Below are positions 7,875 through 24,915 of a stretch of DNA of 42,566 bases, piece after piece. The stretch is from positions 98,077 to 140,642 of the forward strand of contig JAJYDJ010000004.1 of the NCBI GenBank assembly GCA_021777565.1, given 5' to 3'. The DNA is from a bacterium (GTDB lineage Bacteria; Patescibacteriota; Microgenomatia; Levybacterales; UBA12049). Each line of letters starts with the position of its first letter. Within the stretch, counting starts at the first letter, position 1. The notes under the pieces were generated by a model that saw nothing but the letters and a program-made list of their open reading frames with translations, had not been told where the DNA came from and ran no database searches. A program made the translations under genes and the position numbers.

Positions 7875-7947
7875 GCGCCCATAGCTCAGTGGATAGAGCA
7901 CATCGGTTCTAACGATATGGTCGGGGGTTCGAATCCCTCTGGGCGCA
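7875..7947 (+). tRNA. tRNA-Arg(TCT), no encoded CCA, attachment site of the integrated element
   Basis: GCGCCCA-TA-GCTC..GAGC-A-CATCG-GTTCTAA-CGATA-TGGTC-GGGGG-TTCGAAT-CCCTC-TGGGCGC-A; C-A mismatch at the base of the anticodon stem. Confidence 0.92.
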
Positions 7948-9631
7948 CAGACGGGGATTTTTGTTGAATATATTCAAAAATCGAGGCTAATTCGGGTGTT
8001 CCATCTTTAATTTCTTGATAGGTAGCTGATGTATCAAAGAGTAAGCTAAACATAAGTGCATTTTGAACTGGATCTGTGCCTGAAAGAATCAATTCGTGAA
8101 GGTGTTCCATATAATAAATGAGATAGTTGGTAAGCGTATTGACATTAATCTCTTCCTCTTCTTTATTGCCTCGTTTACATATCAATTTAAGTCGTTCCTG
8201 CTCAAGTGTATCCAATTCTGCCTCTACTGCTTTTATTGCAACTTCACTGGTGAGTTTTTTTATCGTTTCAATAATTACTCTTTGCTCACCTTTTATTTGA
8301 GCAATACGTTCGTCAAGTAACGCACTGTCACTCAGGAGGCTTTCTTTTCGTGTACTCCATGCTTCAAGTATCTTCATTTTTAATTTTTGTTGTGCCTCTT
8401 TTGTAAATTCAACCCCTTGAACAAAGCTTTCTACTGTGTCATGAAATTCTGCCTTTTTAATTCGATAATATCTATGACCTTTACTACAATGGTATGCTGG
8501 ACGAGGTTTCCCACCTTTTCCTGTTGAGGCACTTGCTTGAAAAGTCTGCATACAATGAGGACAAAGTATGTGTTGCTTATATGGATATTCAGAACTAACT
8601 GTATTCTTTTGTTGTCTCCACTTTGGAATAAAACCTTTCACTACTTTTAATAAATCTCCCTCTTCAAGAATAGTGACTTTCCCTTTATTCGCTCTATTGA
8701 ACATATCGACTGTTACAAGCCCACCTTTATATAGCCTTACTGGCGTGCCATCTGTCCATTTTTCTGTATTCACTCCTGCATAAATCGGATTTTGGATATA
8801 ATCATGAAACTGCTTTATAGTTAATGGTTTTTCACCTTTGTAATCAATAACTTTCGTCTGATCATTCTTATCTCGTACAAATATTCTTCTTGATTTGAAA
8901 CCCATATCATTTATTATGCGTACTATTTGTTCATCAGTAAGGTTTCCTTGTATGCGAAGTTCAAACATTTTTATAAACCAAACTGACTCAATTGGGTCAG
9001 CTGTACGAATGCTCCGTTTACCATGCGGAGTTTCTACTGTTTCATTCTTATATCCCATTTGTGGTCGTCTAGCAGTGTATCCCATTCTTGTATAACGAAC
9101 CTCTGCGCCAATCATTCTGCTGAGAATATCTCTTACTTCTGATTTTGCCCTTTCTGCCTCTAAAAGTTCACTCGTCCAAGAAGGACTATATTCGCTCCAA
9201 TTATATTTTACATTCAAATGGGATAGAGTATTGATCGTTTGACTACTAATTACACCATAGGTATCAACAAGCGTTACGCCAGCTTTTGCAAATTCTGCCT
9301 TTAAATATCCATAGACTGCAGATCCAGCACGGGTCACTCGGTCAATACTTTTAATAAACGCAAACTCGATCTTATATTCTGGATTTTTACAGTATTCGAC
9401 CGCTTTTAATAGAGGCTGCATGTCTAATTCACCACTAGCAGATTCGGTAAACTCAAATCTTTGTTTGATTTTTATCTTACACGAGAGTGTTGCTTCAATA
9501 CGCAAAATGGCAGACTGATTTCTATTTCCCTGATCGTTCAGGCTGTCACCAGTTAGATCCTGCTTTACAGAAGAGACTCTTCCTATTTCAATGCCGTTCC
9601 TGATTTTAGTATCCATCTCTCTGTCTTTCAT
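7886..9631 (-). CDS. Large serine recombinase / integrase with recombinase domain, zinc ribbon and coiled coil
   Basis: GRVSSVKQ..GDSLNDQ resolvase N-terminus, FIKSIDRVTRAGS, IQNPIYAGVNTEKWTDG (recombinase domain), CPHCMQTF..YHCSKGHRYYRIKK zinc ribbon, coiled coil. C-terminal RPEGFEPPTISLEPMCSIH is antisense tRNA-Arg. Confidence 0.93.
   Translation of the reverse strand: MKDREMDTKIRNGIEIGRVSSVKQDLTGDSLNDQGNRNQSAILRIEATLSCKIKIKQRFEFTESASGELDMQPLLKAVEYCKNPEYKIEFAFIKSIDRVTRAGSAVYGYLKAEFAKAGVTLVDTYGVISSQTINTLSHLNVKYNWSEYSPSWTSELLEAERAKSEVRDILSRMIGAEVRYTRMGYTARRPQMGYKNETVETPHGKRSIRTADPIESVWFIKMFELRIQGNLTDEQIVRIINDMGFKSRRIFVRDKNDQTKVIDYKGEKPLTIKQFHDYIQNPIYAGVNTEKWTDGTPVRLYKGGLVTVDMFNRANKGKVTILEEGDLLKVVKGFIPKWRQQKNTVSSEYPYKQHILCPHCMQTFQASASTGKGGKPRPAYHCSKGHRYYRIKKAEFHDTVESFVQGVEFTKEAQQKLKMKILEAWSTRKESLLSDSALLDERIAQIKGEQRVIIETIKKLTSEVAIKAVEAELDTLEQERLKLICKRGNKEEEEINVNTLTNYLIYYMEHLHELILSGTDPVQNALMFSLLFDTSATYQEIKDGTPELASIFEYIQQKSPSVRPEGFEPPTISLEPMCSIH
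7943..7951. repeat. attL core candidate (GCGCACAGA)
   Basis: Identical to 24655-24663; lies on the last bases of tRNA-Arg. Confidence 0.65.
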
Positions 9632-9800
9632 CGTAGGTTATATTTTTGTAAACCTCAATATGCCATTCTTTCTATCCTCAAGCATACGATCGATGACTAA
9701 GTTAACAAAGATATTCATACGCTCATTATCAGTTACAGACTTCATAACCTGTCTTTCCCGTTTAATGGATATTTTTACTGAAGATCGCCTATTTAATTTT

Positions 9801-10343
9801 TTAATAAGCTACCTCCTTATTTTTGTTTGAAAGTTCTATGTCTATCTCATCAGGGTCAATATATACATCTGCAAAAGAACTTAAATTAACCTTAGAAGAA
9901 ATATTAAAGCTTTGATAGCCAATCTGGCCTCGAGTGCTATGCAAAGCAGCATAGTCTTCTTGCAATTCTGCATTGATCCTATGTATATCTGCATAAAGCT
10001 CATGCAAATTTGCATAGTTCATGCTGTGCATCTTTTTTGCAACATCCTTAAGAAATAGTGGAAAATAAGCAAGATGAATAGAATCTTTATACCTAATAAG
10101 ATACTTTTTCTTTTCAAGATTTTTTAACTGTCTCGAAACAGTAGATTGATTGCAGTTCATTATGACTGCAAGGCTAGAATGCGATTTAGTGATATAAGAG
10201 AATTGAAGATTACTTCTATCCCATACTGCTTCCATTATTAATGTTATGTAAAAACCAAATAGGGCGTATCCTAGGTCTTTTTCAAGTAACTTTGCTTGTC
10301 TTGGTAAAACCAGATACCCATGATAATTCACTTTATTTTCCAT
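9801..10343 (-). CDS. Winged-helix DNA-binding protein, possible replication initiator (RepA_N-like), with heptad-repeat C-terminal segment
   Basis: FGFYITLIMEAV..SHSSLAVIMNCNQSTVSRQLKNLEKKKYLIRYKDSIHLAYFPLFLKDVAKK winged helix-turn-helix; YANLHEL/YADIHRI/NAELQED/YAALHST heptads. Confidence 0.55.
   Translation of the reverse strand: MENKVNYHGYLVLPRQAKLLEKDLGYALFGFYITLIMEAVWDRSNLQFSYITKSHSSLAVIMNCNQSTVSRQLKNLEKKKYLIRYKDSIHLAYFPLFLKDVAKKMHSMNYANLHELYADIHRINAELQEDYAALHSTRGQIGYQSFNISSKVNLSSFADVYIDPDEIDIELSNKNKEVAY
9939..10031. repeat. Iteron-like array: ATGCA-N4-TGCAT-type dyads at 21-bp period inside the Rep-like gene
   Basis: ATGCAAAGCAGCAT (9939), TTGCAATTCTGCAT (9960), ATGTATATCTGCAT (9981), ATGCAAATTTGCAT (10002), ATGCTGTGCAT (10021). 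Confidence 0.65.
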
Positions 10344-10368
10344 ACCTATACATCTCTCTTGTTTAGTT

Positions 10369-10620
10369 TTAACCGCTAAAAATCATATCCTTGATATCTC
10401 TGAAAGCGGAATAAAGTACTTTAGGCTGGATTGCTAACGCATTTAAGTTCCAGTAACTTTGTATAAGCTCTTCCGCTTTAGCTTTAGGAGTGAATTGAAA
10501 AAGAATTGCTCCATTAGGCAATCTTCGTTTCCCAAGAAGCTGTACTTGATTTGTAGCGTATAAGTACGAAGCTACTGCTATATCTTTTATCTCTGCGGCT
10601 GAATTCTCATTCCTATCCAT
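10369..10620 (-). CDS. Small hypothetical protein, DUF5659-like
   Basis: 83 aa; AVASYLYATNQVQLLGKRRLPNGAILFQFTPKAKAEELIQSYWNLNALAIQPKVLYSAFRDIKDMI. Confidence 0.55.
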   Translation of the reverse strand: MDRNENSAAEIKDIAVASYLYATNQVQLLGKRRLPNGAILFQFTPKAKAEELIQSYWNLNALAIQPKVLYSAFRDIKDMIFSG

Positions 10621-10730
10621 ACTATCTAGTATTATTGTATTTGAGGCTAAACAATTACTTATACATTTTTAAAATGATGTATTGGGAGGAGTGAGGCTAT
10701 GTATATAAATTGCTCTAATGTGATATACAT

Positions 10731-11090
10731 TTAGACAGAGTTTTGTAAACTCTTCTCTAGTTCTTCAATGCGTTTCTCAAATTCTGCTTTCTCATGAGCA
10801 TCTAACCAACACCGCGTCAAAAATCCTATGGTCGAACCCACCTTTATTGGTACTTTCCCTTGCCAGATACCATTGATTGTTTTGCTTATAAGCATCTGTA
10901 TGTCTTTAGGTGTTCTTAGTGTTATTTCCTCTTGAAAAGAAATGGATGGACTCCTATTAGTTCCACCTTTCTGAGAAGCAGCATAAGCCCGTGTAATGTG
11001 TTCAGGACTATGCCGAAAGCAAAGTTGAGTATCTACAATACTGTTCGCCTTGCATTGCTCTTTATTTGTTTTTATATAGGTGCATTTCAT
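10731..11090 (-). CDS. Small putative zinc-binding protein (C-x8-C-x10-C-FRH N-terminal motif)
   Basis: MKCTYIKTNKEQCKANSIVDTQLCFRHSPEH; 119 aa with C-terminal coiled coil. Confidence 0.6.
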   Translation of the reverse strand: MKCTYIKTNKEQCKANSIVDTQLCFRHSPEHITRAYAASQKGGTNRSPSISFQEEITLRTPKDIQMLISKTINGIWQGKVPIKVGSTIGFLTRCWLDAHEKAEFEKRIEELEKSLQNSV

Positions 11091-11299
11091 ACAGAAATTC
11101 CATCTTTGGTTAAATAAGTCTTAATAAGAATAATATCTGTACTTTTTTTTGAGTTATCCCACTCCACAAGCCCGCCATTTTTGTACATATAGATAACCTT
11201 TCCAACTTGATAAAGAGTAAGAGTTGTAGGAATCGTTTCAATAGACTCAGTCTTGCCAATTTGAGCCTCAAGTTGTCTTAATCGCATATATACATTCAT
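11087..11299 (-). CDS. Small hypothetical protein
   Basis: 70 aa ORF overlapping the 11090 start by 4 bp (ATGA coupling). Confidence 0.5.
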   Translation of the reverse strand: MNVYMRLRQLEAQIGKTESIETIPTTLTLYQVGKVIYMYKNGGLVEWDNSKKSTDIILIKTYLTKDGISV

Positions 11300-11403
11300 A
11301 ACTTAGTTATGGGGTACCCAGTTTTATAGTAGCTGAACGTAAGAGAAATCTTATACAAAATAGAGATAACAGAAAAAAACATACCAACTGTTATAATAAA
11401 AGC

Positions 11404-12141
11404 ATGGATTTAGAAGTAAAAGAAAAGCTACTTAAAAAGCATTGGTTTCCTCCTCAATATGTCTTGCACGCATGGAATACAATCTTAGATATATTTGGTG
11501 TTGATATTATCAACTCCGATACTGATTTAAAAAAGGTGCAAGAAATGAAAGCTACCTCGATTATGATGTTAGGAATATATAAAAACCTTGGTTTTGAAAA
11601 ATATTTCATGCAAGGAGCAACAGAAAAAGAACAATTTCCTGACACTTTTACCATTTATCAGACTGAGCACCCAGTAGAAACAAAATGGCAAACAATTGAA
11701 GTAGTAGGCTATGGAGACCAAGATAATAGACATATTGATGTAGGTCAATTCATTCTTGAGACAAAACTTGTTAGTAAGAAGAAAGCATATGATGAAGATA
11801 CAATTATCCTATGCAATATCCTGAAGGATAATACTCAAATTGATTATGTTGACATATTTAGTAAACTGAGCTCTGCAAAATTTAAACCTACCCGAGTATA
11901 CGTTGTCGGAAATCTTCATGATGATATTTGGAGATTATCTCAGGTGTGGCCAACAATAACACATGTAAATATAGACGTAGTTGCAGAAGCAAATAATTAT
12001 CCTGAGAAACGTCCCTTTCTATTTCGTCTAGGAAAATCTGAGACTTTTGATGTCCAGCATCATCAACTCATTCCTGTTCCTAATGCGTTCGAAATATTTG
12101 GACTAGATGAAAGCAAGTTAAGAGCAAGATATAATAAGTAA
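11404..12141 (+). CDS. Hypothetical protein
   Basis: 245 aa ORF, good length and codon bias, no motif recognised with confidence. Confidence 0.65.
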   Translation: MDLEVKEKLLKKHWFPPQYVLHAWNTILDIFGVDIINSDTDLKKVQEMKATSIMMLGIYKNLGFEKYFMQGATEKEQFPDTFTIYQTEHPVETKWQTIEVVGYGDQDNRHIDVGQFILETKLVSKKKAYDEDTIILCNILKDNTQIDYVDIFSKLSSAKFKPTRVYVVGNLHDDIWRLSQVWPTITHVNIDVVAEANNYPEKRPFLFRLGKSETFDVQHHQLIPVPNAFEIFGLDESKLRARYNK

Positions 12142-12168
12142 AATTAGGAACATGGAACAAAACATAAT

Positions 12169-12657
12169 ATGTGGAATAATTTATTAAGTGGGCTCATTGG
12201 TGCGGTAATAGGTGCTGTTATTGGTGGTTACCTTTCTTATCTTGGAGCAATAAAAGCAGCAGAAAAAACTATTACAGCTCTATATAAACAGGACCACGAA
12301 CGTAGGGAAATAGAAGCTAAAGAAAAGAAAGATGCAATTGTTAATAACCTGCTAGGTGAAATAAGTGAAAATATTGACCTTGCAGACCAAAATCAAATAG
12401 CGCACGCAAAGATAAAATTCATTACTGATGCTTGGGATAGCGCTAGAGGTAATTTGTATTACCTGAGTGAACCTACTCAGGCTCAAATACAAAAAGCCTA
12501 CATAAATGCACACAACTATAATGCTTTAGTTGAGTATGATTTAGCAAAAGTTCCCTATGGAGCGGGTTACTTTGATGACGAAATGAAAAAGAGAGCCTTA
12601 GCAACCAAAGGTGAGCTAGTTGTTTGCAAGACAGAGTTAGAGAAATTAAAGAAATAA
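12169..12657 (+). CDS. Membrane-anchored hypothetical protein (paralogue A)
   Basis: N-terminal Gly-rich TM segment LLSGLIGAVIGAVIGGYLSYLGAIKAAEKTITALYKQDHERRE. Confidence 0.65.
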   Translation: MWNNLLSGLIGAVIGAVIGGYLSYLGAIKAAEKTITALYKQDHERREIEAKEKKDAIVNNLLGEISENIDLADQNQIAHAKIKFITDAWDSARGNLYYLSEPTQAQIQKAYINAHNYNALVEYDLAKVPYGAGYFDDEMKKRALATKGELVVCKTELEKLKK

Positions 12658-12658
12658 T

Positions 12659-13483
12659 ATGAACATCACTCCAGAATTTGTGACAGCGCTATTAAGCGGC
12701 CTCGTCGGATCCATACTAGGAGCAGTGACTGGTGGATATTACTCATATAAAGGATCAATTGATTCTGCAAAACAGCAAATTTCATCACTTTACAAGCAAG
12801 AAGAGGACAGAAGAAGGCATGAATCTAAAAGAAGAATTCATGACATAAGACATGACAAATACTACGAACATAGAAATACTATTGTTCAAATTGAGCAAGA
12901 GTTAATACCACTCCGAGTAAACATCTCTCGAGATATAATATCTATAGCAGATGCTATTACCAATACACATGAGGCAAATGTCAGATTTATTTTAAGATTT
13001 TATGGGTTACACCTCAGTAATGGTCTCGGACTTCGACTTATGAATTTAGACATAATCAATAAGTATGCTGAATTATATTCAGCTATTGAGAGCTTTAATT
13101 CAGATATTCAGTATGTTTCTGGTATGGTTTCATCTTTTATGGATGATAGGAAAGCTGGAAAAATTGACGATTCAATGATCGAGTCATATAAAGTATTTAT
13201 ACCTCAATTACAAGATACATGTGAACAAATTGACCAGAAATCATTGGAGCTCTTGGGAATGTGTAAGCTAGCGATAGGTAAAGAAGATAAAAAGATTCGA
13301 GATCAATATGTAGAAGATGGCAAGGAGATTAAATACACTTTTGATAAAAAATCCTTAAATAATAAATATGAAGGAATTAAAAAAGAAGAAGATGGTTCAC
13401 TCCATCAGGCTGAAAAACAACCCAAATTTGTCTCTCCTTTCTTGGATTTAAAAAAAGTACTTATAACACCCGTAAACGTTTGA
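12659..13483 (+). CDS. Membrane-anchored hypothetical protein (paralogue B)
   Basis: N-terminus ALLSGLVGSILGAVTGGYYSYKGSIDSAKQQISSLYKQEEDRRR matches paralogue A; longer helical C-terminus. Confidence 0.7.
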   Translation: MNITPEFVTALLSGLVGSILGAVTGGYYSYKGSIDSAKQQISSLYKQEEDRRRHESKRRIHDIRHDKYYEHRNTIVQIEQELIPLRVNISRDIISIADAITNTHEANVRFILRFYGLHLSNGLGLRLMNLDIINKYAELYSAIESFNSDIQYVSGMVSSFMDDRKAGKIDDSMIESYKVFIPQLQDTCEQIDQKSLELLGMCKLAIGKEDKKIRDQYVEDGKEIKYTFDKKSLNNKYEGIKKEEDGSLHQAEKQPKFVSPFLDLKKVLITPVNV

Positions 13484-13532
13484 TTCTAGGATGCTGAAAA
13501 AAGCTCAAGACCTATCGATTCTCTCGAAAAAA

Positions 13533-13769
13533 CTAAAAAGCGATGAGGTCTCTTGCCTTCACTCCAAGTCCTTTGGAGATTTTAATTAAATATCTGATTG
13601 TTGTATTAACATAACCATTCTCAATTTTTGCTAAATAAGATACATCAAGGCTCGCTTTATCAGCTAAATCTTCTTGAGTCATTCTTTTCCCTTCCCTAAG
13701 AGACTTTATTGTTTCCCCAAGTAGCCTTCTTTCTTTTTGGAACGGATTATCCTGTGAGTATCCTCGCAT
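13533..13769 (-). CDS. XRE-family HTH transcriptional regulator
   Basis: LGETIKSLREGKRMTQEDLADKASLDVSYLAKIENGYVNTTIRYLIKISKGLGV. Confidence 0.9.
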   Translation of the reverse strand: MRGYSQDNPFQKERRLLGETIKSLREGKRMTQEDLADKASLDVSYLAKIENGYVNTTIRYLIKISKGLGVKARDLIAF

Positions 13770-13854
13770 AAAGCAATTATTGAAGAACTAGCAATATAGC
13801 ACCATTCCATATATAGAAAGTTTCTGATAGAATTAGACTGGAGGTTATATTAAT

Positions 13855-14121
13855 ATGAGCACTCTGCACGACACACTTTTATTCCAATCAAAGACATTTG
13901 GGCAAACAATTACCGTATATACAGGCTATATTGAAGTCAACTCTCTTGGATTAAAGAATACTATTCCGATCTCCAACATAGCTGAAATCACACAATGGCC
14001 AAGTGTTTTTAGAAAGATGATTAGATTGAGCTTTAACAACGGCAAAAAGCTAGATATATACCCCAAAAATTCAGATGAGTTCTTGTTAATAGTGAGCAAG
14101 CTCACGAACGTGAACAAATAA
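13855..14121 (+). CDS. Small hypothetical protein, possibly PH-like fold
   Basis: 88 aa, beta-rich VYTGYIEVNSLGLKNTIPISNIAEITQW...IRLSFNNGKKLDIYPKNSDEFLLIVSKL. Confidence 0.5.
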   Translation: MSTLHDTLLFQSKTFGQTITVYTGYIEVNSLGLKNTIPISNIAEITQWPSVFRKMIRLSFNNGKKLDIYPKNSDEFLLIVSKLTNVNK

Positions 14122-14348
14122 ATCTTTTCCCAGATATTCTGGAATAATGTCTGCAAGTGGCATTCTAGAGTCTTGTAGCTTACCTCTATGAGAGAGCCAG
14201 ATACTGATCGATCACCTCAATATTCCATATATGGCGCTATAGTACAACCTTTCCTGCTTTTGGTGCTGATATATAAGTTGATATGGCCAAATAATTGTAA
14301 ATAGTCTAGTTTTATACTAAAATGTGCAGATTGATAAGATAAATAATT

Positions 14349-15176
14349 ATGGGACTAGAATTAGAACAATCCACGCTCCAAGCACTTTTTAACCCGCAAG
14401 AGTTTCGAGACTTTAGTGGAATTATCAGTGAAGTTTGCGCTAGACATCCCGACGTACAAGGAGTGGTTATAACTGGTAGCTTAACCCAAAGACTCAGATT
14501 ACCAGAACCCCCAGATGGGCACTTTGAGAATCCATACCAAGAAGCATATAGCCTTATCGAAAGGCCTGGTAGGCGAAGAATATTTCCTAGCGCAACGTCA
14601 GATTTAGATGTATGGGTTTGTCTCAAAGACCCAGACGATATAGGAGATGTAAAGCTTGCATTAGAGACCAGAGCGATAGAGCTTATCAAATGGTTGGCAG
14701 ATCATCAAGGTTTATATCCAACCGCTGAATGGGCACTTCTCAAACAGCAAGCATTTGATGCATTTTATAAACAAGCATATATGTATTCACACGTTTGGAA
14801 TGAGCTTAATCCACAGTATCCCTGGAGAGGTGGTCACTTAAAACGAGAAATAATACGAGAATTACAAGGTAGTATGCCAAGCTTGATCGCTAGAATAAAC
14901 CATCATTTTACAAAAGGGATTCCTGGTCAATTTATTGAACTTAGAGCACTCCCAGCTTCAACGTTTAATCTACGACCTGATGAGAATATTATTGATGGAG
15001 TTGAAGATAAGTCTCCATTCCCAAGGATCATTGAACGTTTGTTAGATATGGATAGAAACTGCTTTGTATTGTTTATTTCCAACACAGGACAAGAAGAAAT
15101 GATATATCCTTTCAATATGGATGGGGAGCGACTTGGACAAGGAATACTAGATTTTATTACAACCCCTCAGGACTAA
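14349..15176 (+). CDS. Nucleotidyltransferase-like protein (Pol-beta superfamily), paralogue 1
   Basis: GVVITGSLTQRLRLPEP...RRRIFPSATSDLDVWVCLKD: G-S and DLD motifs; paralogous to 20645-21523. Confidence 0.75.
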   Translation: MGLELEQSTLQALFNPQEFRDFSGIISEVCARHPDVQGVVITGSLTQRLRLPEPPDGHFENPYQEAYSLIERPGRRRIFPSATSDLDVWVCLKDPDDIGDVKLALETRAIELIKWLADHQGLYPTAEWALLKQQAFDAFYKQAYMYSHVWNELNPQYPWRGGHLKREIIRELQGSMPSLIARINHHFTKGIPGQFIELRALPASTFNLRPDENIIDGVEDKSPFPRIIERLLDMDRNCFVLFISNTGQEEMIYPFNMDGERLGQGILDFITTPQD

Positions 15177-15202
15177 TATTGCTCCAAAATAGCTATAATT
15201 CG

Positions 15203-16480
15203 CTATAGGGGGTAAGCAAATAATGGGATTTCCATTTCATTTCTACTCAGACCTCCATGTTGCCCCTTAGCCTGCTTCAAATATTTATCGCCTCTATACC
15301 ACCAGACTGATTGCCCATTATAAGGGAGAATAATAAGATCTCCAACAATCTTTTTAAAACGATTTGATGGGGTAGCACTTCCGAAAAATCCTTGATCTAG
15401 CAGATCCTTGCTTTTATACACTTCCGCAACTCCATTCAAAGACTGTTCTAATTTTTCTTTTGCTTTGTCTACATAATCAGGCTTTATATATAAAAATAGA
15501 TCTTTGGCTGATCCTCCAGGTAAGATTGGCTCATTATTTGCATTTCTCTTTAAGTAGTCTTCAAACTCAGGGATGATTTTATTAATATATATTGTTTCTT
15601 CTGGATCAAAAACGTCATGTCCATGATCTGCAGTAATCAGTAAAAGTGTCTTTGATTGCTTCTCCCGCACTTTATTTAATAACAATTCATCAATTAGTCT
15701 TAATGTATTGTCAATTTCTAGATCAAGCTCAGGAGAACCCGCACCATATTTATGGGCAATATCATCTATAGAGTTTATATAAAAATAAAAGAACCGTTTT
15801 CCCTGCGCAGGTTGATCAATAAGTTTAGATAGTTCATATAGACCTTCATTTAAGGTGATATAAGAAAACATATTACTGCCCTCCATGAGTACTTTATTAA
15901 ATTCAGAGTTTGCATAACTATCACCCAAGAATGTAAAAGAGGTAATTCCCTCGTTGGCAAACTCCTTATAAACATTTTTTGCAGGATAAAGTTCACTAGG
16001 GGACAGTTGAAATTCTTTTGTTAAATCTACTCTACTTTTATATCCATGCTTAAACTTGATTGGCATAATAATATCATCAGCTTTTTCGTTATACTGCCTG
16101 AATTCAATTAGCTCCGTTTCTACGGGTTCCATGCCACTATTCATTGTGGGAACCGCAGCAGCTGTGGTAGAAGGAAAAACTGAAGTTAGCTTTGACAAGA
16201 CGCCATTCGATGTAAGTTTTTTTACTACTAAATTATCTTTTAATCGTGGCTCAATAAATCTCCAACCCAACCCATCTATAAAGAATAAAACTACGGTGTC
16301 AAATTCGTTACCAAGATTCCCCAGTACATCTTCAGGAAGTTTTTTATCAGACTTTCCAGTCAATATGGATTCTATTGTCCCAATCACATTGCTGAAACCA
16401 TAACTCTCATAAAGTGGTCTGATAAATGCTTTTGAGAATCGAGATTCATCGATAGCCTTTAGCGATTTGTCATTTACCAT
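15203..16480 (-). CDS. Alkaline-phosphatase superfamily phosphodiesterase/pyrophosphatase
   Basis: VVLFFIDGLGWRF, SVFPSTTAAAVPTMNSG, INSIDDIAHKYG, LLITADHGHDVF, GQHGGLSRNEMEIPLFAYPL: full metal/nucleophile motif set. Confidence 0.88.
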   Translation of the reverse strand: MVNDKSLKAIDESRFSKAFIRPLYESYGFSNVIGTIESILTGKSDKKLPEDVLGNLGNEFDTVVLFFIDGLGWRFIEPRLKDNLVVKKLTSNGVLSKLTSVFPSTTAAAVPTMNSGMEPVETELIEFRQYNEKADDIIMPIKFKHGYKSRVDLTKEFQLSPSELYPAKNVYKEFANEGITSFTFLGDSYANSEFNKVLMEGSNMFSYITLNEGLYELSKLIDQPAQGKRFFYFYINSIDDIAHKYGAGSPELDLEIDNTLRLIDELLLNKVREKQSKTLLLITADHGHDVFDPEETIYINKIIPEFEDYLKRNANNEPILPGGSAKDLFLYIKPDYVDKAKEKLEQSLNGVAEVYKSKDLLDQGFFGSATPSNRFKKIVGDLIILPYNGQSVWWYRGDKYLKQAKGQHGGLSRNEMEIPLFAYPL

Positions 16481-16512
16481 AGTAAGATAATACTCCTTTT
16501 ATAGCTAAATCT

Positions 16513-17691
16513 CTAGTTTTGATCTTCAAGAATACTTCTAATTTGTTCTTGTCTAAGATCTCTTTGTAGTAACCATGTCTCGTCAACAATAGGGGCTTTT
16601 TGATAGAAGAACCCTAACGCTGATAATCCATTACCTGTTGAGACTAATCTAGGAGCAAAATAGATACTATCTGGTGTTTCACCTTCTTCATAAGCCATAT
16701 ACATTGTGTAGGCGCACCCCCGAAGGAAGACCCTTTCCGTATTTGATCTTACATCTTCACCAGATTTCAGATTATGGGCAAGAAAAGATAACCATCGTAT
16801 GACTGATTCAGAATTCACCTGATATTCAATTAGAAAGCTAGCTAATCTAGTTTCAGCTTCTATTGTTGACCGCCTACGTGGCATACCTGTATGATCAATA
16901 TCATTCGTATCTATAAAGAGACTTGTAATCTCACCATATAAAGCAACTAAGTTGCTATGAAATATTTGTAAATCTTCATAGAATTGAATATCGTTTAATT
17001 GATCAGGCCTAAATGAAAGCTTTATTCCTTCTGAACGTCCTAAATCAATACTTGTAAATGAAGAAGTACCTCGTACCAAATGCTCCTGTATAGAGGGAAC
17101 CTCTAATAAGTTCGTAATGAGAGTGTTAAATGGGTCATCCATATAGTCTTGAAATCCTTTGGAAAGAGTAGAGCTCCTTACTTCTTGCAATGTTGAAGCT
17201 TCATGCTCGCTAATAGCAAATGCATGAAAATGCAAATCAGGGAGTGACTGCACGTGAACTTTCTTACCAAATACAGACTGATCATAAATAGGATCAACAT
17301 GGAAACTAGTAGAAATCACATGAGCTCTAGTTGGAGTTATTTCACTATAAGCATGATGTAATGCAAAAAGTTCCTGGAAGGTTCTCTGCAACTCGTGGGG
17401 AGATAGCGCATCAATAGAGTTTACTGTATCATTCTCCCGAGCAATATATAGCATATTATCTAATCCAGGTTCTGCAATATATGGATTCCTTTTGGGGAAT
17501 AAGTAGGCACCAAGTGTTGCAGAAAGATCTCGATATAAGAAAGATGCCTGTTCCAATTGGGCTTGTCCTCCTTCAATCCTACGTCCTTGTTCATATAAAG
17601 CATCACTGGTTGACATATTACCCTTCGGAACATCACCAATGGTGATCATTTTATATCTGCTCTCTGGTGAATGGGATAATAACTCTATCAC
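16513..17691 (-). CDS. Hypothetical protein, possibly divergent HIT/GalT-like nucleotide-binding protein
   Basis: NPYIAEPGLDNMLYIARENDT..LSPHELQRTFQELFALHHAYSE..VHVQSLPDLHFHAFAIS; resembles HIT motif HxHxH with first His replaced by Asp. Confidence 0.4.
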   Translation of the reverse strand: MIELLSHSPESRYKMITIGDVPKGNMSTSDALYEQGRRIEGGQAQLEQASFLYRDLSATLGAYLFPKRNPYIAEPGLDNMLYIARENDTVNSIDALSPHELQRTFQELFALHHAYSEITPTRAHVISTSFHVDPIYDQSVFGKKVHVQSLPDLHFHAFAISEHEASTLQEVRSSTLSKGFQDYMDDPFNTLITNLLEVPSIQEHLVRGTSSFTSIDLGRSEGIKLSFRPDQLNDIQFYEDLQIFHSNLVALYGEITSLFIDTNDIDHTGMPRRRSTIEAETRLASFLIEYQVNSESVIRWLSFLAHNLKSGEDVRSNTERVFLRGCAYTMYMAYEEGETPDSIYFAPRLVSTGNGLSALGFFYQKAPIVDETWLLQRDLRQEQIRSILEDQN

Positions 17692-19040
17692 ATTGAATCC
17701 CCCTTATATGCATCAAAAAGTCTCCATACGTATATTTTTCTTAACTGATAATCCTGTTTAATCGACCTAGCTATTGGGAGAGTGCCAACCGATGTTTGAA
17801 AATCTGGATGCATAAAGTTTGCAATATACGCTGATCTTCGTTCTGCAGAACTTCGTTGTTTATAAATAACTCTATAAGGATCAATTTCAACAAAGCTTAA
17901 CCTAACTGAGTCTGCTCCTAAATCTACAAGTGTGTCATGAATAAGCTGCGCTGTTTGACCTGAGTTTGCGTTATCCTCGACAACCTGAATTTGTTTTCCA
18001 ATAATTTCTGCTTCATGACGTAGTAGGTAAGCTCTTAGCTGCTCGTCAGAAAAAGCTTCAAACGAATTGATAGTTGTAGAATGTAATGAAAGAGGTACAT
18101 ACAGGATTGGTAAATCTTTGCCATTGAGATGACGGTATGCCATTTGAAATGCAATTGCTGTTTGAGTCCCACCACTGACAAGCGCTAAGAGCGTATCTGC
18201 AATATATCCCTGTCTGAGAGTTTCCTGGATATGTGCCATGATACGCAAAGGATGATCTACTTCCTGCACCGTATATTGTCTATAGTTTCTATCCTGTTGA
18301 GATAAAAAACTAAGCAAATCAGTAGTTTCCTGTTGTAACTGAGTAAAGTCTAAATCTTTGTCATATTCACGCCCAAGAAATGTTTGATAATACATCCTTG
18401 TTGCTATCTCTGCCAATTGAATAGCATGTTCCCTATATGCATGATATAAATCATCTGTAATAAGGTTTCCAAAACGTTCAGGATAAGTTAAAACATGTAA
18501 GGCAGTTAACGCATGTTGTTTGAAGTAATCAACCACACCTAGTAACCCAAGCAGGTCGTCTTGAGACGCGGTATTTCTATCAAAATGATGGATAACATGC
18601 AATGCGTCCACCATATCTCTCTGCATTATCTCAATCTTGCTTTGTGAGTCAATAAATTCTGGGTCAACAGCGACATAATAACTCTTTCCACGATTTTCAA
18701 CCCTTCCTCTATGATCATAATGCCTGGACTTGTGTTCAAAAAAGTCTAATATCGATTGATCTGTTATGCCATGTGGCAATATAACAGCTCCTGTTAGCGG
18801 TTCGAATTGAGTGGCAAGATCAACTTCTTTAAGGCTGGGCAATTCTGTTCCCCAAAAAATGGAAGAGTGAATATCACTTTCCAATTGAGATACTCTTTGC
18901 GCTAACAGTCTATCTGTCTCCGTAACTAATGAGTAAACATCTACATGGTCAGCTTGCAAAGAATATTGCTGAGAATCTTCAGGTGAGATTGGCCAGATAT
19001 TAGTTCTTACTACTTCTTGTTCATGAATTCTTATACTCAT
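17688..19040 (-). CDS. Phosphoribosyltransferase-domain protein
   Basis: LLALVSGGTQTAIAFQMAYRHL...QIQVVEDNANSGQTAQLIHDTLVDLGADSVRLSFVEIDPYRVIYK resembles the PRPP-binding loop; ATGA overlap with downstream gene. Confidence 0.7.
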   Translation of the reverse strand: MSIRIHEQEVVRTNIWPISPEDSQQYSLQADHVDVYSLVTETDRLLAQRVSQLESDIHSSIFWGTELPSLKEVDLATQFEPLTGAVILPHGITDQSILDFFEHKSRHYDHRGRVENRGKSYYVAVDPEFIDSQSKIEIMQRDMVDALHVIHHFDRNTASQDDLLGLLGVVDYFKQHALTALHVLTYPERFGNLITDDLYHAYREHAIQLAEIATRMYYQTFLGREYDKDLDFTQLQQETTDLLSFLSQQDRNYRQYTVQEVDHPLRIMAHIQETLRQGYIADTLLALVSGGTQTAIAFQMAYRHLNGKDLPILYVPLSLHSTTINSFEAFSDEQLRAYLLRHEAEIIGKQIQVVEDNANSGQTAQLIHDTLVDLGADSVRLSFVEIDPYRVIYKQRSSAERRSAYIANFMHPDFQTSVGTLPIARSIKQDYQLRKIYVWRLFDAYKGDSM

Positions 19041-19044
19041 AAAC

Positions 19045-20112
19045 TTATCTCCTTACTTGTTGCTGCAGTCGGGGCACTTCACTACGAATACTTTCTCCAA
19101 CAGTATCATTAAAAGATTCATCGGATGCTCTTCCTCTAATGAGTCCAAATACAAATGATGATAATGTATTATCAATATTAAATATGTTGATTCTTGCTTG
19201 AAGTAAATTAGGCGAATGAAGTAGTGTTCTAGCAAAATCTGCACTTGCCCATCCCAGTGCTTCTCTAGCAGATATATATGCATCAACTAATGCAAGTTTT
19301 TGTTCTGGTGAAAGTGGTGGTCTATATCTATCTGGCCTTGTAGGATCGGGGAGCTGATTAGAAGATAGCATAAGCAGTTTTTCAATATCTGCGTACCAAT
19401 CGCCGCCATTAATGCCTTGCTCAAAATCAATTATCCCAATACTCCCATTATCAAGAAGCAAATTTTGGTGTCGTAAGTCTCCATGAATAGTACTCGCAAC
19501 TTCGGTATCATTTACAGCAATATTAAGTATAGATTCTCCATACGCAATTATTTCCTCAATTCTTTGAAGATCGGCTGCATCTATGTGTGTGTCTCCTTCT
19601 AAGGATGAGAAAAACTCTTTTAAGTGATGAAAGCGTGTAGCAAAGTACTCCCGTAAAGGAGTGGTATTCTCATGTCCGTGATGAAACTCTGCAAGCCATA
19701 AAGTTAATTGTGAATATGTTCCATACCCCAATCCATCAAATGATGCTTCAGTAAGAGTCTGCCCATGAAGATAGGTTTCTGCCCAATAACTTACAGGGAT
19801 TCCTTGATAAACTTGGTCTCCCTCTGCAGTTACTGATGGAGTACGAATACCATGACTAACAGGTAGTGAATCGTAGAGTGCTTTTATTTGCCTTCCTTTT
19901 GACGGATAAATCCATCGATTGGCAATCATTATTTCTGATTCTGTTGAAAGAATAAGAGGTAGAGTAGCGTGTAGCACTTCATCATTACCACGTCTCATGT
20001 TAATATGCACATCCCCATGGCCAATAGTCGAGTATTGAGATAATTCTTCTGCACTATATGGAGTAACAGACGTTAAATATTCTATAATTTGTTCTCTGCC
20101 TTCTAGTTTCAT
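19045..20112 (-). CDS. Aminoglycoside phosphotransferase (APH)/choline-kinase-family protein
   Basis: STIHGDLRHQNLLLDNGSIGIIDFEQGINGGDWYADIEKLLML: Brenner HGDxxxxN and IIDFE motifs. Confidence 0.88.
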   Translation of the reverse strand: MKLEGREQIIEYLTSVTPYSAEELSQYSTIGHGDVHINMRRGNDEVLHATLPLILSTESEIMIANRWIYPSKGRQIKALYDSLPVSHGIRTPSVTAEGDQVYQGIPVSYWAETYLHGQTLTEASFDGLGYGTYSQLTLWLAEFHHGHENTTPLREYFATRFHHLKEFFSSLEGDTHIDAADLQRIEEIIAYGESILNIAVNDTEVASTIHGDLRHQNLLLDNGSIGIIDFEQGINGGDWYADIEKLLMLSSNQLPDPTRPDRYRPPLSPEQKLALVDAYISAREALGWASADFARTLLHSPNLLQARINIFNIDNTLSSFVFGLIRGRASDESFNDTVGESIRSEVPRLQQQVRR

Positions 20113-20114
20113 AA

Positions 20115-20648
20115 TTACCTTTCTGTAAAATTTAACAATGCATTATATTGAAATGCTAAATCATCATAATCAGGTGCATGAATATGATGTAATGCTACAT
20201 CAATAGATGCAAGGCCATTAATAATGGTATATCTTCTAATGCCTATCTCAGCTCTAATCTCACGTTTGATCCGAGCCAATGCTTCATGTGCATCTTGTGA
20301 ATTAACAGGATCGTTTAGAACAAAAGCATAGGCAAAGTCAGCGTGAGTACCGAATAAATGCCTATTTAACATAAGCCATGCATAACTATGTGGTTTTTCT
20401 GCAACAACAGGATATATGTATCTCCCCATGAGTTCAAAGTTATTAACTTCAGCTTCTCTTCGAACGCTCAATCCATGATTTGCAATTGATGCACGAATTT
20501 CATCGAGATGTTGTATACCCGAGGGTAGAACGAGAAAAAAAGGTAGTGGCTCAGTTTGATAATCACGTAAGGGAGGAAGCTCACCAAAGTATTGTTCTGG
20601 TACGTCATTGAGGTGAATTATAGTTACATCTGCATGTTCCAGGCTCAT
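20115..20648 (-). CDS. Divergent nucleoside-diphosphate-kinase-like protein (tentative)
   Basis: LPFFLVLPSGIQHLDEIRASIANHGLSV...YAFVLNDPVNSQDAHEALARIKREI...HHIHAPDYDDLAFQYNALLNF follows NDK order, with IHAPDYDDLAF at the NAVHGSDSxExA position. Confidence 0.5.
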   Translation of the reverse strand: MSLEHADVTIIHLNDVPEQYFGELPPLRDYQTEPLPFFLVLPSGIQHLDEIRASIANHGLSVRREAEVNNFELMGRYIYPVVAEKPHSYAWLMLNRHLFGTHADFAYAFVLNDPVNSQDAHEALARIKREIRAEIGIRRYTIINGLASIDVALHHIHAPDYDDLAFQYNALLNFTER

Positions 20649-21523
20649 ACAAAGTCATCCCTTCTTACAAGTTTTTGTAGCCTCTCATTAAGAATTTCTC
20701 CTTTAGAATTAAATGGATAGATAAGCTCGTCTTTTGATTCCTCTCGTGCGTATAATACATAACAATTATCATTAAGATCTACAAGATCATCTAAAGGGAA
20801 AGGGAATGGCGTTTTATCTATTTTCCCTTCTACCATAATTTCCTCTGGTCTAAGGTTAAACACACTTGTGGGGTATGATCGCAGTTCAAAGAATTCTCCA
20901 GGTATCTTCTTTTCAAAGTTATGATTAATCCTATTAACTACTCTGGGCAGACTGCTTTCAAGCTCTCTAATAATTGCACGCTTTAATTTACCACCCCTCC
21001 ATGGATATTCTGGATTTTTCTTAATCCACGCTTCAGAGTACATGGAATTTTGCTTATAAAATTCATTAAATGCTTTCTGTTTTCTATTGATCCATTCGTA
21101 ATAATAATTAGGAGAATGCATATTCTCGGCTAACCATTGAACTAGTTCGATGGATCTGTCCTCCAAAGTTGACTTAACTCTCTCAGCAATATCTTGAGGA
21201 TAGGGATCTTTAGTTAAGACCCAAATATCTAAGTCTGAAGAACGTGACGGAAAGATTCTTCGCCTCTGCTTATTTAAGATTAATTTGTATGCCTCATTGT
21301 AAGCATTAGCATTTATTGTTGCTTTGGGATCTGGCAGTTGAAGGTTTTGAGTAAAGCTACCTGTTATTAACACTCCTAGGACATCTTTGTCTTGATCACA
21401 AACCTCCTTTAGAATGAATAAAAACTTTTGATATTCGTTTTCATCAAAGATTGATTGCAAAATAGATTCATTAACGTGTCTCATGTAAATAACATTATAC
21501 ATCCAATTAACTTGCCACATCAA
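20645..21523 (-). CDS. Nucleotidyltransferase-like protein (Pol-beta superfamily), paralogue 2; probable start at 21484
   Basis: GVLITGSFTQNLQLPDP...RRRIFPSRSSDLDIWVLTKD; alignment with paralogue 1 favours MRHVNESILQSIF as N-terminus. Confidence 0.75.
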   Translation of the reverse strand: MMWQVNWMYNVIYMRHVNESILQSIFDENEYQKFLFILKEVCDQDKDVLGVLITGSFTQNLQLPDPKATINANAYNEAYKLILNKQRRRIFPSRSSDLDIWVLTKDPYPQDIAERVKSTLEDRSIELVQWLAENMHSPNYYYEWINRKQKAFNEFYKQNSMYSEAWIKKNPEYPWRGGKLKRAIIRELESSLPRVVNRINHNFEKKIPGEFFELRSYPTSVFNLRPEEIMVEGKIDKTPFPFPLDDLVDLNDNCYVLYAREESKDELIYPFNSKGEILNERLQKLVRRDDFV

Positions 21524-21560
21524 CCTATATTAGTTATACTCCAGTTACTAAATAACACGT

Positions 21561-22706
21561 ATGGCATATGAGGCATTATCACCACGAAGTAGAGAAAGAT
21601 CCCTATTTGAGGGAGATATCGTAATGGTTTCGCATGAGAGAAGAGAAGCTGTACCAATTGTTCCGTATCTTCTCAATCAGGAATCTACCCCAGAGCAAAT
21701 TTTATCCGCATTTATGCCTACTAGTGAGTGGATCTTTCCTGCCAGTCAAGCTGACTTACTTAATCAATCCGTCACAGATGCAATGAGTACCGTCTTAACT
21801 ACCACAAGAGATCTGTATCTTTTAGCCCAGCAATCTCTAGAGGGCGTAAACTGGTTTGGATATAATGATCATGGACCTGCACACATAAGATCTGTTGCTG
21901 AACGAGTTAACTATTTAGCTAACCGATTACACATAGCTGACAGCCCACATATAATTGCTTTAGTTGCTGCAGGAGGGCATGATTTAGGAAATCTTATTTC
22001 GCGTGATATTCATTCTTTTATTTCTTCTTCTGTTCTTTTTCGTGTTTTCCCAAATTTATTAAATACTCCTGAACAAGCCAGAGAAGTAAGGAAGACTATA
22101 GAACTTCATGACGGGCTTGTTTATGACAAAGTAGTAGCAGGCTTACAAACTCAAGGCTTCGAGGGAGAACAGTTCATTTCTCGATTTAGAGAGATAGCTG
22201 GTACACCAGGACTGCTATTGCTCATAGCAGATAAAACCGACATTGGAAGACATAGGGTCAATAGAAAGGCATTGTCTCCTGCCGCAATTGATAGGCATGC
22301 TCATTCTGAACTAAATTTATTATTTGAGACACAAGCTGTCGACATAAATCCTAATGATGGCACATTCAACTGGGAGATAGAGTTTAGCCAGCTTGTGCAT
22401 GATGTCGATATGCCAAGATTTGCTGGATTAGTTCTTCCAGCGGATGAAAGGCATCTATATGCCTCTAAACGAGTAGTAGTATCACAAGACAGTTCAGAAG
22501 CAGATTTTAATAAAAGCATTGAGCTTTTGCTCAATAAATCCAGATCAAGAATAAATATCGCTCTCCTTTCGGCTTTTGCATTAGATCAGCGAGTACAGCA
22601 AGCAAATATAATAATTCACCAAATAAATTCCCAAGGTGAGCGAGAAGAATATATACTTAATATGAGAAGGGAAGAGTTTGTGGCTTATATGCTAGAACAA
22701 ACATAA
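21561..22706 (+). CDS. HD-domain phosphohydrolase-like protein
   Basis: DHGPAHIRSVAERVNYLANRL...ALVAAGGHDLGNLISRDIHSF...IELHDG: H...HD...HD pattern. Confidence 0.75.
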   Translation: MAYEALSPRSRERSLFEGDIVMVSHERREAVPIVPYLLNQESTPEQILSAFMPTSEWIFPASQADLLNQSVTDAMSTVLTTTRDLYLLAQQSLEGVNWFGYNDHGPAHIRSVAERVNYLANRLHIADSPHIIALVAAGGHDLGNLISRDIHSFISSSVLFRVFPNLLNTPEQAREVRKTIELHDGLVYDKVVAGLQTQGFEGEQFISRFREIAGTPGLLLLIADKTDIGRHRVNRKALSPAAIDRHAHSELNLLFETQAVDINPNDGTFNWEIEFSQLVHDVDMPRFAGLVLPADERHLYASKRVVVSQDSSEADFNKSIELLLNKSRSRINIALLSAFALDQRVQQANIIIHQINSQGEREEYILNMRREEFVAYMLEQT

Positions 22707-22727
22707 GACAATTATTTTAATAAACAG

Positions 22728-24548
22728 ATGAGTGATACAAATACTTCTAAACCACATATAACCTTAGATTTATTAGCTCTTGCAAGGGAGCATGTTGACC
22801 AGGTAACAAATAGTATTTCTGCTAAAAAAGATTTTGTTGATACACAGATAACTTACTTAAGAAAACGTATTATACATGCCCGCGGAGACGACAGAGATCA
22901 ATTCGAAGGAAGGTTGCTTCATGAGTTAGAAAATCAACGCATGATGGAAACTCAGATACAGTCTCCTTACTTTGTGCGCTGCGATGTTCACCTAGATGGA
23001 GAGCAACAAGCCAAAATTTGGTACTTTGGTAAATTCCCATTTCTTTCAGAATCAATCTATTCATGGGTTACACCAGCGGCAACAATTCGCTTTGAATCAC
23101 CTGGTAGATTTAGATACACAACCCCAGAAGGTGAAGACATTACTGGAGCATTGCTACGTAAAGATCAATTTCTGATTGTAAATAAGAAAATCCTTTTTAT
23201 GGCGACTGAGAATAAAGAGCAACAAAGAAAGTTAGTGTACCAAGAGTACTTTTCTCAAAAGAAAGATAGTTTTGCGTTAACAGAAATTGTGGAACAAATG
23301 GAAAAGGCACAGGATACAATTATTCGAGCACACCACAGAGGATCATTTTTAATATCTGGCCCTGCTGGTTCAGGAAAGACTACTCTTGCACTTCATCGGG
23401 TCGCATTCTTAGTACAATCACCAGATACATCCGCTTTATTCCCTGAAAAAGAAATAATTATTTTTGTTCAGGACAGAGTCACACAAGAGTACTTTGCGAA
23501 ATTACTTCCATCACTTGGTATTTATGATGTATCAATTACAACATTCGATCAATGGGCCATGAGCATTTTAGGGCTTACAAATGTGTCATATGCTATGAGA
23601 TCTTCTACGTCACTTGGCGAACTTGAGCTAGATGCATATGAATTTGCTAAGTATCAGTCAATGAAAGAGATTAAAAGTTATCCAACGAATCTGTTAAGGG
23701 TATTCGATTATTTAGAACAATGTTATGAAAAAGAATTCACTACTGAACAAAAAGAACTCTTTAAAAAACAAAAAAAAGCATTAATTCTAGATAGATTTGA
23801 TCTAACACTTCTTTTGAAAGCTACATTAAAGACAAAAGATAAACTCACTATACAGAAGGAGAAGTTCACACGCACTGCAAGTGGCAAATATACAAAAAAA
23901 CTGACTGATAAGGATGTTTCTTTTGCTCTTATGGTCATTGACGAAGCAGAAAATTATCTTCCAGAGCAGTTACAAATCTTCAAATCATGCAGCAATAAGC
24001 AAACTCAAGCGATCATTTATGTCGGTGATCTTGTCCAACAGACACTTCCATTCACGATTAAACAATGGGCTGACATTGAAGAAAAGTTTGACGATGAAAG
24101 GAAAGTAGTTCTTCAAAAGGTATATAGAAATACTAAACAAATCCTTGAATATATTAAAAGCCATGAATATGAAGTTGTTATTCCAGAAGAAGCTCGTGGA
24201 GGCGAAATGGTTGAAGAAATCGCAGAATCAAAAGTTAAAGAGCTGATTATTAACAAGCATATCAAGGATACAAGTATTGGCATACTTGCACAGTCTGAAC
24301 AATCCCTTGGTAAATATCGAAGGCTTCTGGATAGTTATAAAAATGTACATTGCTTCACTATCAATGAAGCTCAAGGAGTTGAATTCGACACAGTATTCCT
24401 GGTATCACCTCATAAGCCTGAGGATAATACGCATCATACTCAAAACAATGAGTTAATTAAAGAAAGAGAAAAGGTTAATCGCGACCTATTATATGTTGCA
24501 TACACACGAGCTATACAAAAGCTGTATATTGTAAAAGCTATATCATGA
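22728..24548 (+). CDS. HelD-like UvrD/Rep superfamily I helicase
   Basis: SGPAGSGKTTLALHRVAFLV (Walker A), LMVIDEAENYLP (Walker B), KVYRNTKQI, INEAQGVEFDTVFLVSP, LLYVAYTRAIQKLYIV; HelD-like N-terminus (YFGKFPFLSESIYSWVTPAA). Confidence 0.88.
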   Translation: MSDTNTSKPHITLDLLALAREHVDQVTNSISAKKDFVDTQITYLRKRIIHARGDDRDQFEGRLLHELENQRMMETQIQSPYFVRCDVHLDGEQQAKIWYFGKFPFLSESIYSWVTPAATIRFESPGRFRYTTPEGEDITGALLRKDQFLIVNKKILFMATENKEQQRKLVYQEYFSQKKDSFALTEIVEQMEKAQDTIIRAHHRGSFLISGPAGSGKTTLALHRVAFLVQSPDTSALFPEKEIIIFVQDRVTQEYFAKLLPSLGIYDVSITTFDQWAMSILGLTNVSYAMRSSTSLGELELDAYEFAKYQSMKEIKSYPTNLLRVFDYLEQCYEKEFTTEQKELFKKQKKALILDRFDLTLLLKATLKTKDKLTIQKEKFTRTASGKYTKKLTDKDVSFALMVIDEAENYLPEQLQIFKSCSNKQTQAIIYVGDLVQQTLPFTIKQWADIEEKFDDERKVVLQKVYRNTKQILEYIKSHEYEVVIPEEARGGEMVEEIAESKVKELIINKHIKDTSIGILAQSEQSLGKYRRLLDSYKNVHCFTINEAQGVEFDTVFLVSPHKPEDNTHHTQNNELIKEREKVNRDLLYVAYTRAIQKLYIVKAIS

Positions 24549-24654
24549 ATGTTCTAGTAAATAGTTAGTTTTGAATAAGTATCTGTGCCTGCTGAAAAGT
24601 GTTATATAATCTAATACAATATACCTGTAGGGTGTTCCATTCTGGGAACTCTCT

Positions 24655-24663
24655 GCGCACAGA
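24655..24663. repeat. attR core candidate (GCGCACAGA), preceded by GTTCC-ATTCTG-GGAAC dyad
   Basis: Identical to 7943-7951; followed by AAAGATTTTTTT, plausible original 3' flank of tRNA-Arg. Confidence 0.65.
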
Positions 24664-24748: not shown

Positions 24749-24853
24749 GCGCCCGTAGCTTATTTACAAGAGCGTGGTGTCTTTAAGCAAATGGGGAGCA
24801 ATCCCTGTAGACAAAAAGGTACTGAGGAGAGAGTGCAAGGCTTTCCGGGCGCA
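24749..24853 (+). ncRNA. tRNA-like structured RNA of uncertain identity (105 nt)
   Basis: Perfect 7-bp GCGCCCG/CGGGCGC acceptor-like stem + A, TA spacer, GCTT/GAGC D-like stem, GAGAG-TGCAAGG-CTTTC T-arm-like hairpin; no canonical anticodon arm found. Confidence 0.4.
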
Positions 24854-24915
24854 TAAATTTACTTCAAGAAGCCTCCCTCTTTGCAATTTCTGAATTTCGA
24901 CTATACTAGTAGTAT

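Follow-up and report, generated by a model that had tools for sequence, protein, structure and literature searches.

A probable integrative element at a tRNA-Arg gene of a Levybacterales bacterium carries an operon of putative nucleotide-handling enzymes

The element and its gene cluster

The window analysed here is a stretch of 42,566 nucleotides from contig JAJYDJ010000004.1 of a bacterium of the order Levybacterales (Patescibacteriota) with a genome of 1.02 Mb. It holds a probable integrative element next to a tRNA-Arg gene, and the right part of this element contains nine genes, six of them packed into an operon on the minus strand (Table 1). Three families of this set, a nucleotidyltransferase (NTase), a protein with an HHxHAPD motif and an NPP-family phosphodiesterase, recur together as a core in another genome. 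Our open reading frame (ORF) calls recovered all nine genes at the coordinates given in an earlier reading of the letters alone (hereafter the original prediction), which had proposed them to be a candidate undescribed system with a possible role in defence, immunity or stress signalling.

The six-gene run, 15203-21523, is as compact as had been claimed, with intergenic gaps of -4, +2, +4, -4 and +32 bp. Both of its 4-bp overlaps had been given as ATGA; this is right for NTase-1 and the 'NDK-like' gene (20645-20648), whereas the overlap between the phosphoribosyltransferase (PRTase) and GalT-like genes (17688-17691) reads GTGA, a GTG start following a ribosome-binding-like stretch, AAGGGGG. 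Both homologues of NTase-1 begin at the position of the ATG near 21484, which makes this the probable start instead of the TTG listed at 21523. The cluster is not a chance pattern, because six long ORFs nearly abut on the same strand, enzyme motifs are present and three of the families recur together elsewhere. A promoter scan gave no excess over shuffled sequences.

Carriage of the nine genes by a mobile element, which the original prediction had also put forward, is supported by composition and by the sequences at both ends. The 3' end of the integrase gene runs into the tRNA-Arg gene, the GC content of the element is 0.362 against 0.438 and 0.424 in the flanks, and the GC content at third codon positions (GC3) is 0.22-0.33 for every gene of the element compared with 0.33-0.49 in the flanking genes sampled. 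At the other end, the window's best match to the 3' end of the tRNA-Arg gene falls in tiles 24401-24601, just past the HelD-like gene, with a score of 33 that is barely ahead of the runner-up at 31 (mean 19.8, sd 3.4). In addition, terminal repeats were detected as 10-mers common to 7994/8072/8101 and 24581/24630, a level reached by none of 836 control tiles. All nine genes thus appear to be cargo of an element inserted at tRNA-Arg by its large serine recombinase. The right end is approximate, near GCACAG at 24656-24661, because no empty site was found: when it was sought through the DsbA-like neighbour gene, none of 13 regions of related genomes proved syntenic, and the putative attB had no match in the 3' flanks of tRNA-Arg genes of relatives. 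A homologue of the recombinase in another genome, G518 (21% identity over 568 aa), runs into a tRNA-Leu gene adjoining tRNA-Arg.

Table 1. Features of the probable integrative element and of the gene cluster it carries (window positions).
Feature	Position	Strand	Basis
tRNA-Arg (TCT), insertion target	7875-7948	+	ARAGORN, Rfam
Large serine recombinase (integrase)	7886-9631	-	phrog_95 integrase, E 7.7e-15
Whole integrative element, 16.7 kb	~7949-24660		GC/GC3 drop, tRNA 3'-end-like sequence, terminal repeats
NTase-2 (second nucleotidyltransferase paralogue)	14349-15176	+	ORF call; GS...DLD motif
NPP-family phosphodiesterase/pyrophosphatase, AP superfamily, proposed eraser	15203-16480	-	PF01663; NPP profile matches; catalytic residues
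HIT/GalT-like protein	16513-17691	-	LHxHxF motif; low-confidence model
PRTase: N-terminal part of unknown nature and C-terminal type I PRTase-like domain	17688-19040	-	PRPP-loop-like motif; weak matches
APH-fold small-molecule kinase	19045-20112	-	PF01636; IHGDLxxxN...IDFE motif
'NDK-like' protein, family with HHxHAPD motif	20115-20648	-	Homologues in G465 and G462
NTase-1, proposed writer	20645-21523 (likely start near 21484)	-	GS...SDLD motif
HD-motif protein, divergent from the operon	21561-22706	+	HD-type residue pattern; phrog_3921
HelD-like RNA-polymerase-recycling motor	22728-24548	+	NF041464; PDB 6wvk

Three further genes of the element, at 11404-13483, have no known function, and those at 12169 and 12659 start with a hydrophobic glycine-rich stretch. 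Just beyond the right end, at 24751-24855 on the plus strand, lies a tRNA-like fold with a 7-bp acceptor-like stem and a long anticodon-arm insertion; it lacks a TTCGA T-loop, has a minimum free energy of -36.9 kcal/mol (z -2.4) and was called by neither ARAGORN nor Rfam.

Protein families of the cluster

The phosphodiesterase, APH and HelD assignments are statistically supported, and the HD, NTase, PRTase and HIT/GalT folds were assigned from motifs and weak matches. Five of the six fold labels given to the operon by the original prediction hold or are probable; the sixth, 'NDK-like', failed every test applied to it.

The assignment of the phosphodiesterase to the NPP family is solid as judged from its sequence. 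It matched PF01663 (E 3.9e-23) and, by profile, ENPP1, ENPP3 and bacterial NPP, and residues D69, T105, D239, H243, D285, H286 and H408, which we take to be the catalytic threonine and the metal ligands of the family, are invariant between the window protein and its homologue in the genome G465; all of them except H408 fall in the stretch aligned with ENPP3. Members of the NPP family typically act on small nucleotides (PMC12839542), which together with the recurrence of the NTase/NPP pair in G465 agrees with the predicted handling of a nucleotide-like metabolite. The related BREX protein PglZ was considered and rejected: PF08665 scored 19.9 bits against a cut-off of 25, the BREX models stayed far below theirs, and the window protein is stand-alone, with no BREX partner among the nine genes. 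In PADLOC the six-gene cluster gave only marginal PglZ and KwaB matches, so that, as expected, no named system was recognised.

NTase-1 and NTase-2 are true paralogues, about 50-51% identical, as had been proposed, and NTase-2 is 42.5% identical to the NTase of G465. The residues G55-S56...S96-D97-L98-D99 are unchanged across the three homologues and E213 is a candidate third acid, such that both window proteins carry the polymerase-beta-type nucleotidyltransferase motif (hG[GS]...Dh[DE]h plus a third acidic residue). Polbeta and NTP_transf_2 matched NTase-1 weakly, and Adenyl_cycl_N matched all three proteins weakly; these profile matches are marginal and far below the curated cut-offs.

The gene that overlaps NTase-1 had been read as a nucleoside-diphosphate kinase (NDK). 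No PF00334 match was found in the Pfam search, comparison with the NDKs of relatives by hhalign gave nothing significant, as did hmmsearch --max and local alignments of shuffled sequences, and a low-confidence AlphaFold model gave no NDK match in Foldseek. Of the likeness to NDKs, which are marked by GTIR...HGSD motifs, there is left a brief similarity at HAPD and a succession of strands and helices that is roughly alike. Homologues are present in G465 (39%) and in a further genome, G462 (34%), with 33 columns invariant in the three members, and we describe the protein from these alignments as a putative new family with an HHxHAPD motif, recognised by no library used. The host already has a standard NDK (C3:26500) and a second NDK match; among relatives, NDKs occur (L028, L029, L031) in which a long insertion separates the first half from the region of the GTIR/His motif.

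Among the remaining enzymes of the operon, the APH kinase is statistically supported, with a PF01636 match (E 9.8e-8, 32.5 bits against a gathering cut-off of 23.2) and the IHGDLxxxN...IDFE motif. The putative PRTase contains a PRPP-loop-like stretch, VEDNANSGQTA, on which the weak HGPRTase (E 0.041) and PyrR matches lie, and PRTase-family proteins account for five weak matches among its eight PDB matches. The GalT-like protein had no match at the sequence level. Its LHxHxF motif (H154/H156) is kept in its one homologue, found in the genome G179 (29%), and GalT-related structures make up most of the top nine fold matches (best E 0.02) of a model with a pLDDT of 45; the label is therefore probable but not proven.

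Divergent from the operon, the HD protein shows the pattern H104/H108...H140-D141...D224 and matched phrog_3921 (E 7e-4) but no Pfam family. The HelD-like protein matched NF041464 (E 3.5e-34) with 117.8 bits against an equivalog cut-off of 419, and PDB 6wvk, a HelD, with E 1.8e-27. It can be aligned with HelD of Bacillus subtilis over the N-terminal arm and the first ATPase region, although the window protein is shorter (606 aa compared with 774-779) and far below the equivalog cut-off. We searched 90 relatives for this arm and found it in two. The only close relative, in the genome G507 (L104 8387-10201), is 49% identical over 588 aa and lies near ABC-transporter and MFS genes, with no nucleotide genes nearby. 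The HelD-like protein, included in the original prediction as part of the set, is separable from it: we rejected the idea of an integral component since this sole close relative stands alone.

Recurrence in other genomes

The genomes searched were samples and not a census. The NTase family was found in two of 240 genomes of the class, and the HHxHAPD family in three of them plus one doubtful match, with no other member of either family among 384 genomes of the phylum; an HHxHAPD match in G347 (E 8.8e-4) was discarded on account of three stop codons. When genome contigs were searched with the NTase alignment, that of G465 was the sole one retrieved. This genome belongs to another family of the same class, and in it the 4-bp overlap of the NTase and HHxHAPD genes, which are 39-42% identical to those of the window, is repeated; an NPP gene, 33% identical over 366 aa, and a Nudix gene lie beside them. 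As both families are rare, their joint recurrence is unlikely to be accidental. Also near this core are genes for a 5-methylcytosine methyltransferase and for a large helicase that matched defence models.

G462, the pieces of which were joined through a 99-base overlap of contig ends, encodes a fusion of the HHxHAPD domain with a MazG-like region; genes for an APH-fold kinase and an S51 peptidase come after it. The island around them (L018 660-10330 and L019 1-4184) contains type I restriction-modification genes as well as two genes resembling aminoacyl-tRNA synthetases. Its products include HisRS-like and AsnRS-like proteins, peptidases of the S66 and S51 families and a RelA/SpoT-like protein, a mix of peptidases and synthetase-like proteins reminiscent of peptidyl-nucleotide pathways. 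Close to the GalT-like homologue of G179 is a gene that weakly matched nucleoside-deoxyribosyltransferase; there (L012 3387-5316) two similar proteins of 185-186 aa, one of them the protein with this match, flank a methyltransferase.

The original prediction had treated the nine families as one set and had made their co-occurrence in other genomes its own touchstone. Three families do recur together, namely NTase, 'NDK-like' and NPP, and a fourth, APH, was met only as a neighbour of the same fold; in the genomes sampled no co-occurrence was found for the PRTase and HIT/GalT families. Two samples, of 290 and 60 genomes, contained no PRTase relative outside the host genome. In viral contigs, no relative was found with the NTase, PRTase, HHxHAPD, GalT-like, HD and integrase queries; the plasmid collection had no match for NTase-1, PRTase, GalT-like, APH and HD, and the phage collection none for NTase-1.

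Possible chemistry and competing explanations

Our preferred reading, which we hold tentatively, is that the element carries an operon that makes and turns over a nucleotide-linked small molecule. From the motifs and the conserved overlapping gene pair, we infer that the NTase together with the adjacent HHxHAPD protein could act as the writer, moving a nucleoside monophosphate from an NTP onto an acceptor. The acceptor may be base-like and receive phosphoribose from the PRTase, or it may be phosphorylated by the APH-fold kinase, and the GalT-like protein, in line with the Nudix gene beside the core in G465, might swap or hydrolyse a nucleotidyl group; these three additions of the window could supply or vary the acceptor. 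The NPP, with its family and catalytic residues established, would be the eraser, limiting the product by cleaving a phosphoanhydride or phosphodiester. The HD and HelD-like genes, which diverge from the operon, would have accessory roles. Because HelD proteins free stalled RNA polymerase and HelR confers rifampicin resistance (PMC10719064), one may guess at a product that disturbs RNA polymerase. A setting of conflict is hinted at by the restriction-modification genes in the islands of G465 and G462, and a role against phages, competitors or other elements is plausible.

Several observations weigh against this reading. The set has no assigned substrate, product or phenotype, and no fold is known for the HHxHAPD protein. 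Three of the nine families recur together, and only once, in G465, where neither a PRTase nor an APH gene lies beside the core; the full pathway is thus not conserved and the additions are possibly unrelated cargo. PRTase, APH and HD had no close relatives in the collections that were searched with each of them. Between the APH proteins of the window and of G462 the similarity is confined to the motif region, so that their link is one of fold and not of orthology.

A part of these observations would also be explained if an insertion hot spot had gathered the genes, joint function being limited to the NTase, HHxHAPD and NPP core. The lone HelD-like relative in G507, the different neighbours of the GalT-like relative in G179 and the core of G465 without PRTase and APH fit such accretion, but six genes on one strand with two overlapping pairs and a spacing of -4 to +32 bp, and a uniformly low GC3, do not, and we consider it rather unlikely. 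We regard as less likely a salvage operon, by which a bacterium with a genome of about 1 Mb, poor in biosynthesis, would scavenge host bases and nucleotides with the PRTase, the APH-fold kinase, the NPP and an HD phosphohydrolase. Reduced genomes are generally known to rely on salvage, and PRTase, kinase and NPP folds occur in such pathways as well as in the window; however, the NTase pair and the GalT-like enzyme are not salvage steps, the cluster lacks a transporter, the host has its own NDKs, and rarity and mobile carriage suit an accessory function more than core metabolism.

Immunity by a nucleotide signal, of the CBASS/Pycsar type, would make a different nucleotidyltransferase the sensor and the NPP the off-switch. 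A nucleotidyltransferase-type motif, the weak matches of all three NTases to a class I adenylate cyclase domain, a nucleotide phosphodiesterase on the same mobile element, the known cleavage of cyclic dinucleotides by ENPP1-like NPPs and the restriction-modification neighbours all point in this direction. Yet neither NTase, as a candidate CBASS CD-NTase, had a PADLOC match, no recognisable effector (nuclease, pore or phospholipase) is present in the operon or among the nine genes, and the kinase, PRTase and GalT-like genes are extra; we consider this explanation improbable. The one we rank lowest is a drug-modifying resistance island, in which NTase, APH and other enzymes would inactivate antibiotics while the HelD-like protein shields RNA polymerase as HelR does against rifamycins. 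Aminoglycoside-modifying enzymes are indeed known among the APH and NTase folds, HelD-like proteins are rare in the relatives, and HelD/HelR strips rifampicin from RNA polymerase (PMC10719064). No ncbifam resistance model was matched at its cut-off, however, and resistance genes are not known to couple an NTase with an HHxHAPD protein and an NPP. Moreover, the HelD-like protein is nearest to class I HelD, for which Surette et al., as far as they are relayed in PMC10719064, found no effect on the minimum inhibitory concentration of rifampicin; a newer study of B. subtilis HelD reported protection from rifampicin (PMC12802891).

Among described systems, the nearest idea in kind is a Ter-associated pathway for a nucleoside-like metabolite. 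In 2012 Anantharaman, Iyer and Aravind, whose work is cited in PMC7159879 and PMC12839542, reportedly predicted its synthesis, with PRTases among the enzymes, in accessory operons of bacteria. None of the nine window proteins has a Ter-family Pfam or NCBIfam match, and NTase, NPP, APH and GalT-like proteins are not known as parts of the Ter module. A kinase together with a GalT-type enzyme is also a feature of the bifidobacterial hexosamine pathway, the 1-kinase of which is presumably related to APH. In that pathway the hexosamine 1-kinase and a GalT-type uridylyltransferase act on one sugar (PMC8106489), but the cluster has no sugar phosphorylase or GalE, and nothing in that pathway corresponds to its PRTase, NTase and NPP.

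Returning to the operon as a maker of a nucleotide-linked molecule, a bolder version, which we think doubtful, would place NTase, HHxHAPD and NPP at the centre of a so far undescribed conflict system that works through nucleotides in ultra-small bacteria: the partnered polymerase-beta-type NTase would make a nucleotidylated effector or signal, the NPP would destroy the product, and the add-on enzymes would vary. Mobile-element cargo is little known in bacteria with genomes of about 1 Mb, where every kilobase is costly. A recurring set of a putative writer and eraser, together with a family recognised by none of the libraries used, would offer a concrete, small and testable entry to nucleotide-based chemistry in this group, and structural studies gain a new target in the HHxHAPD protein.

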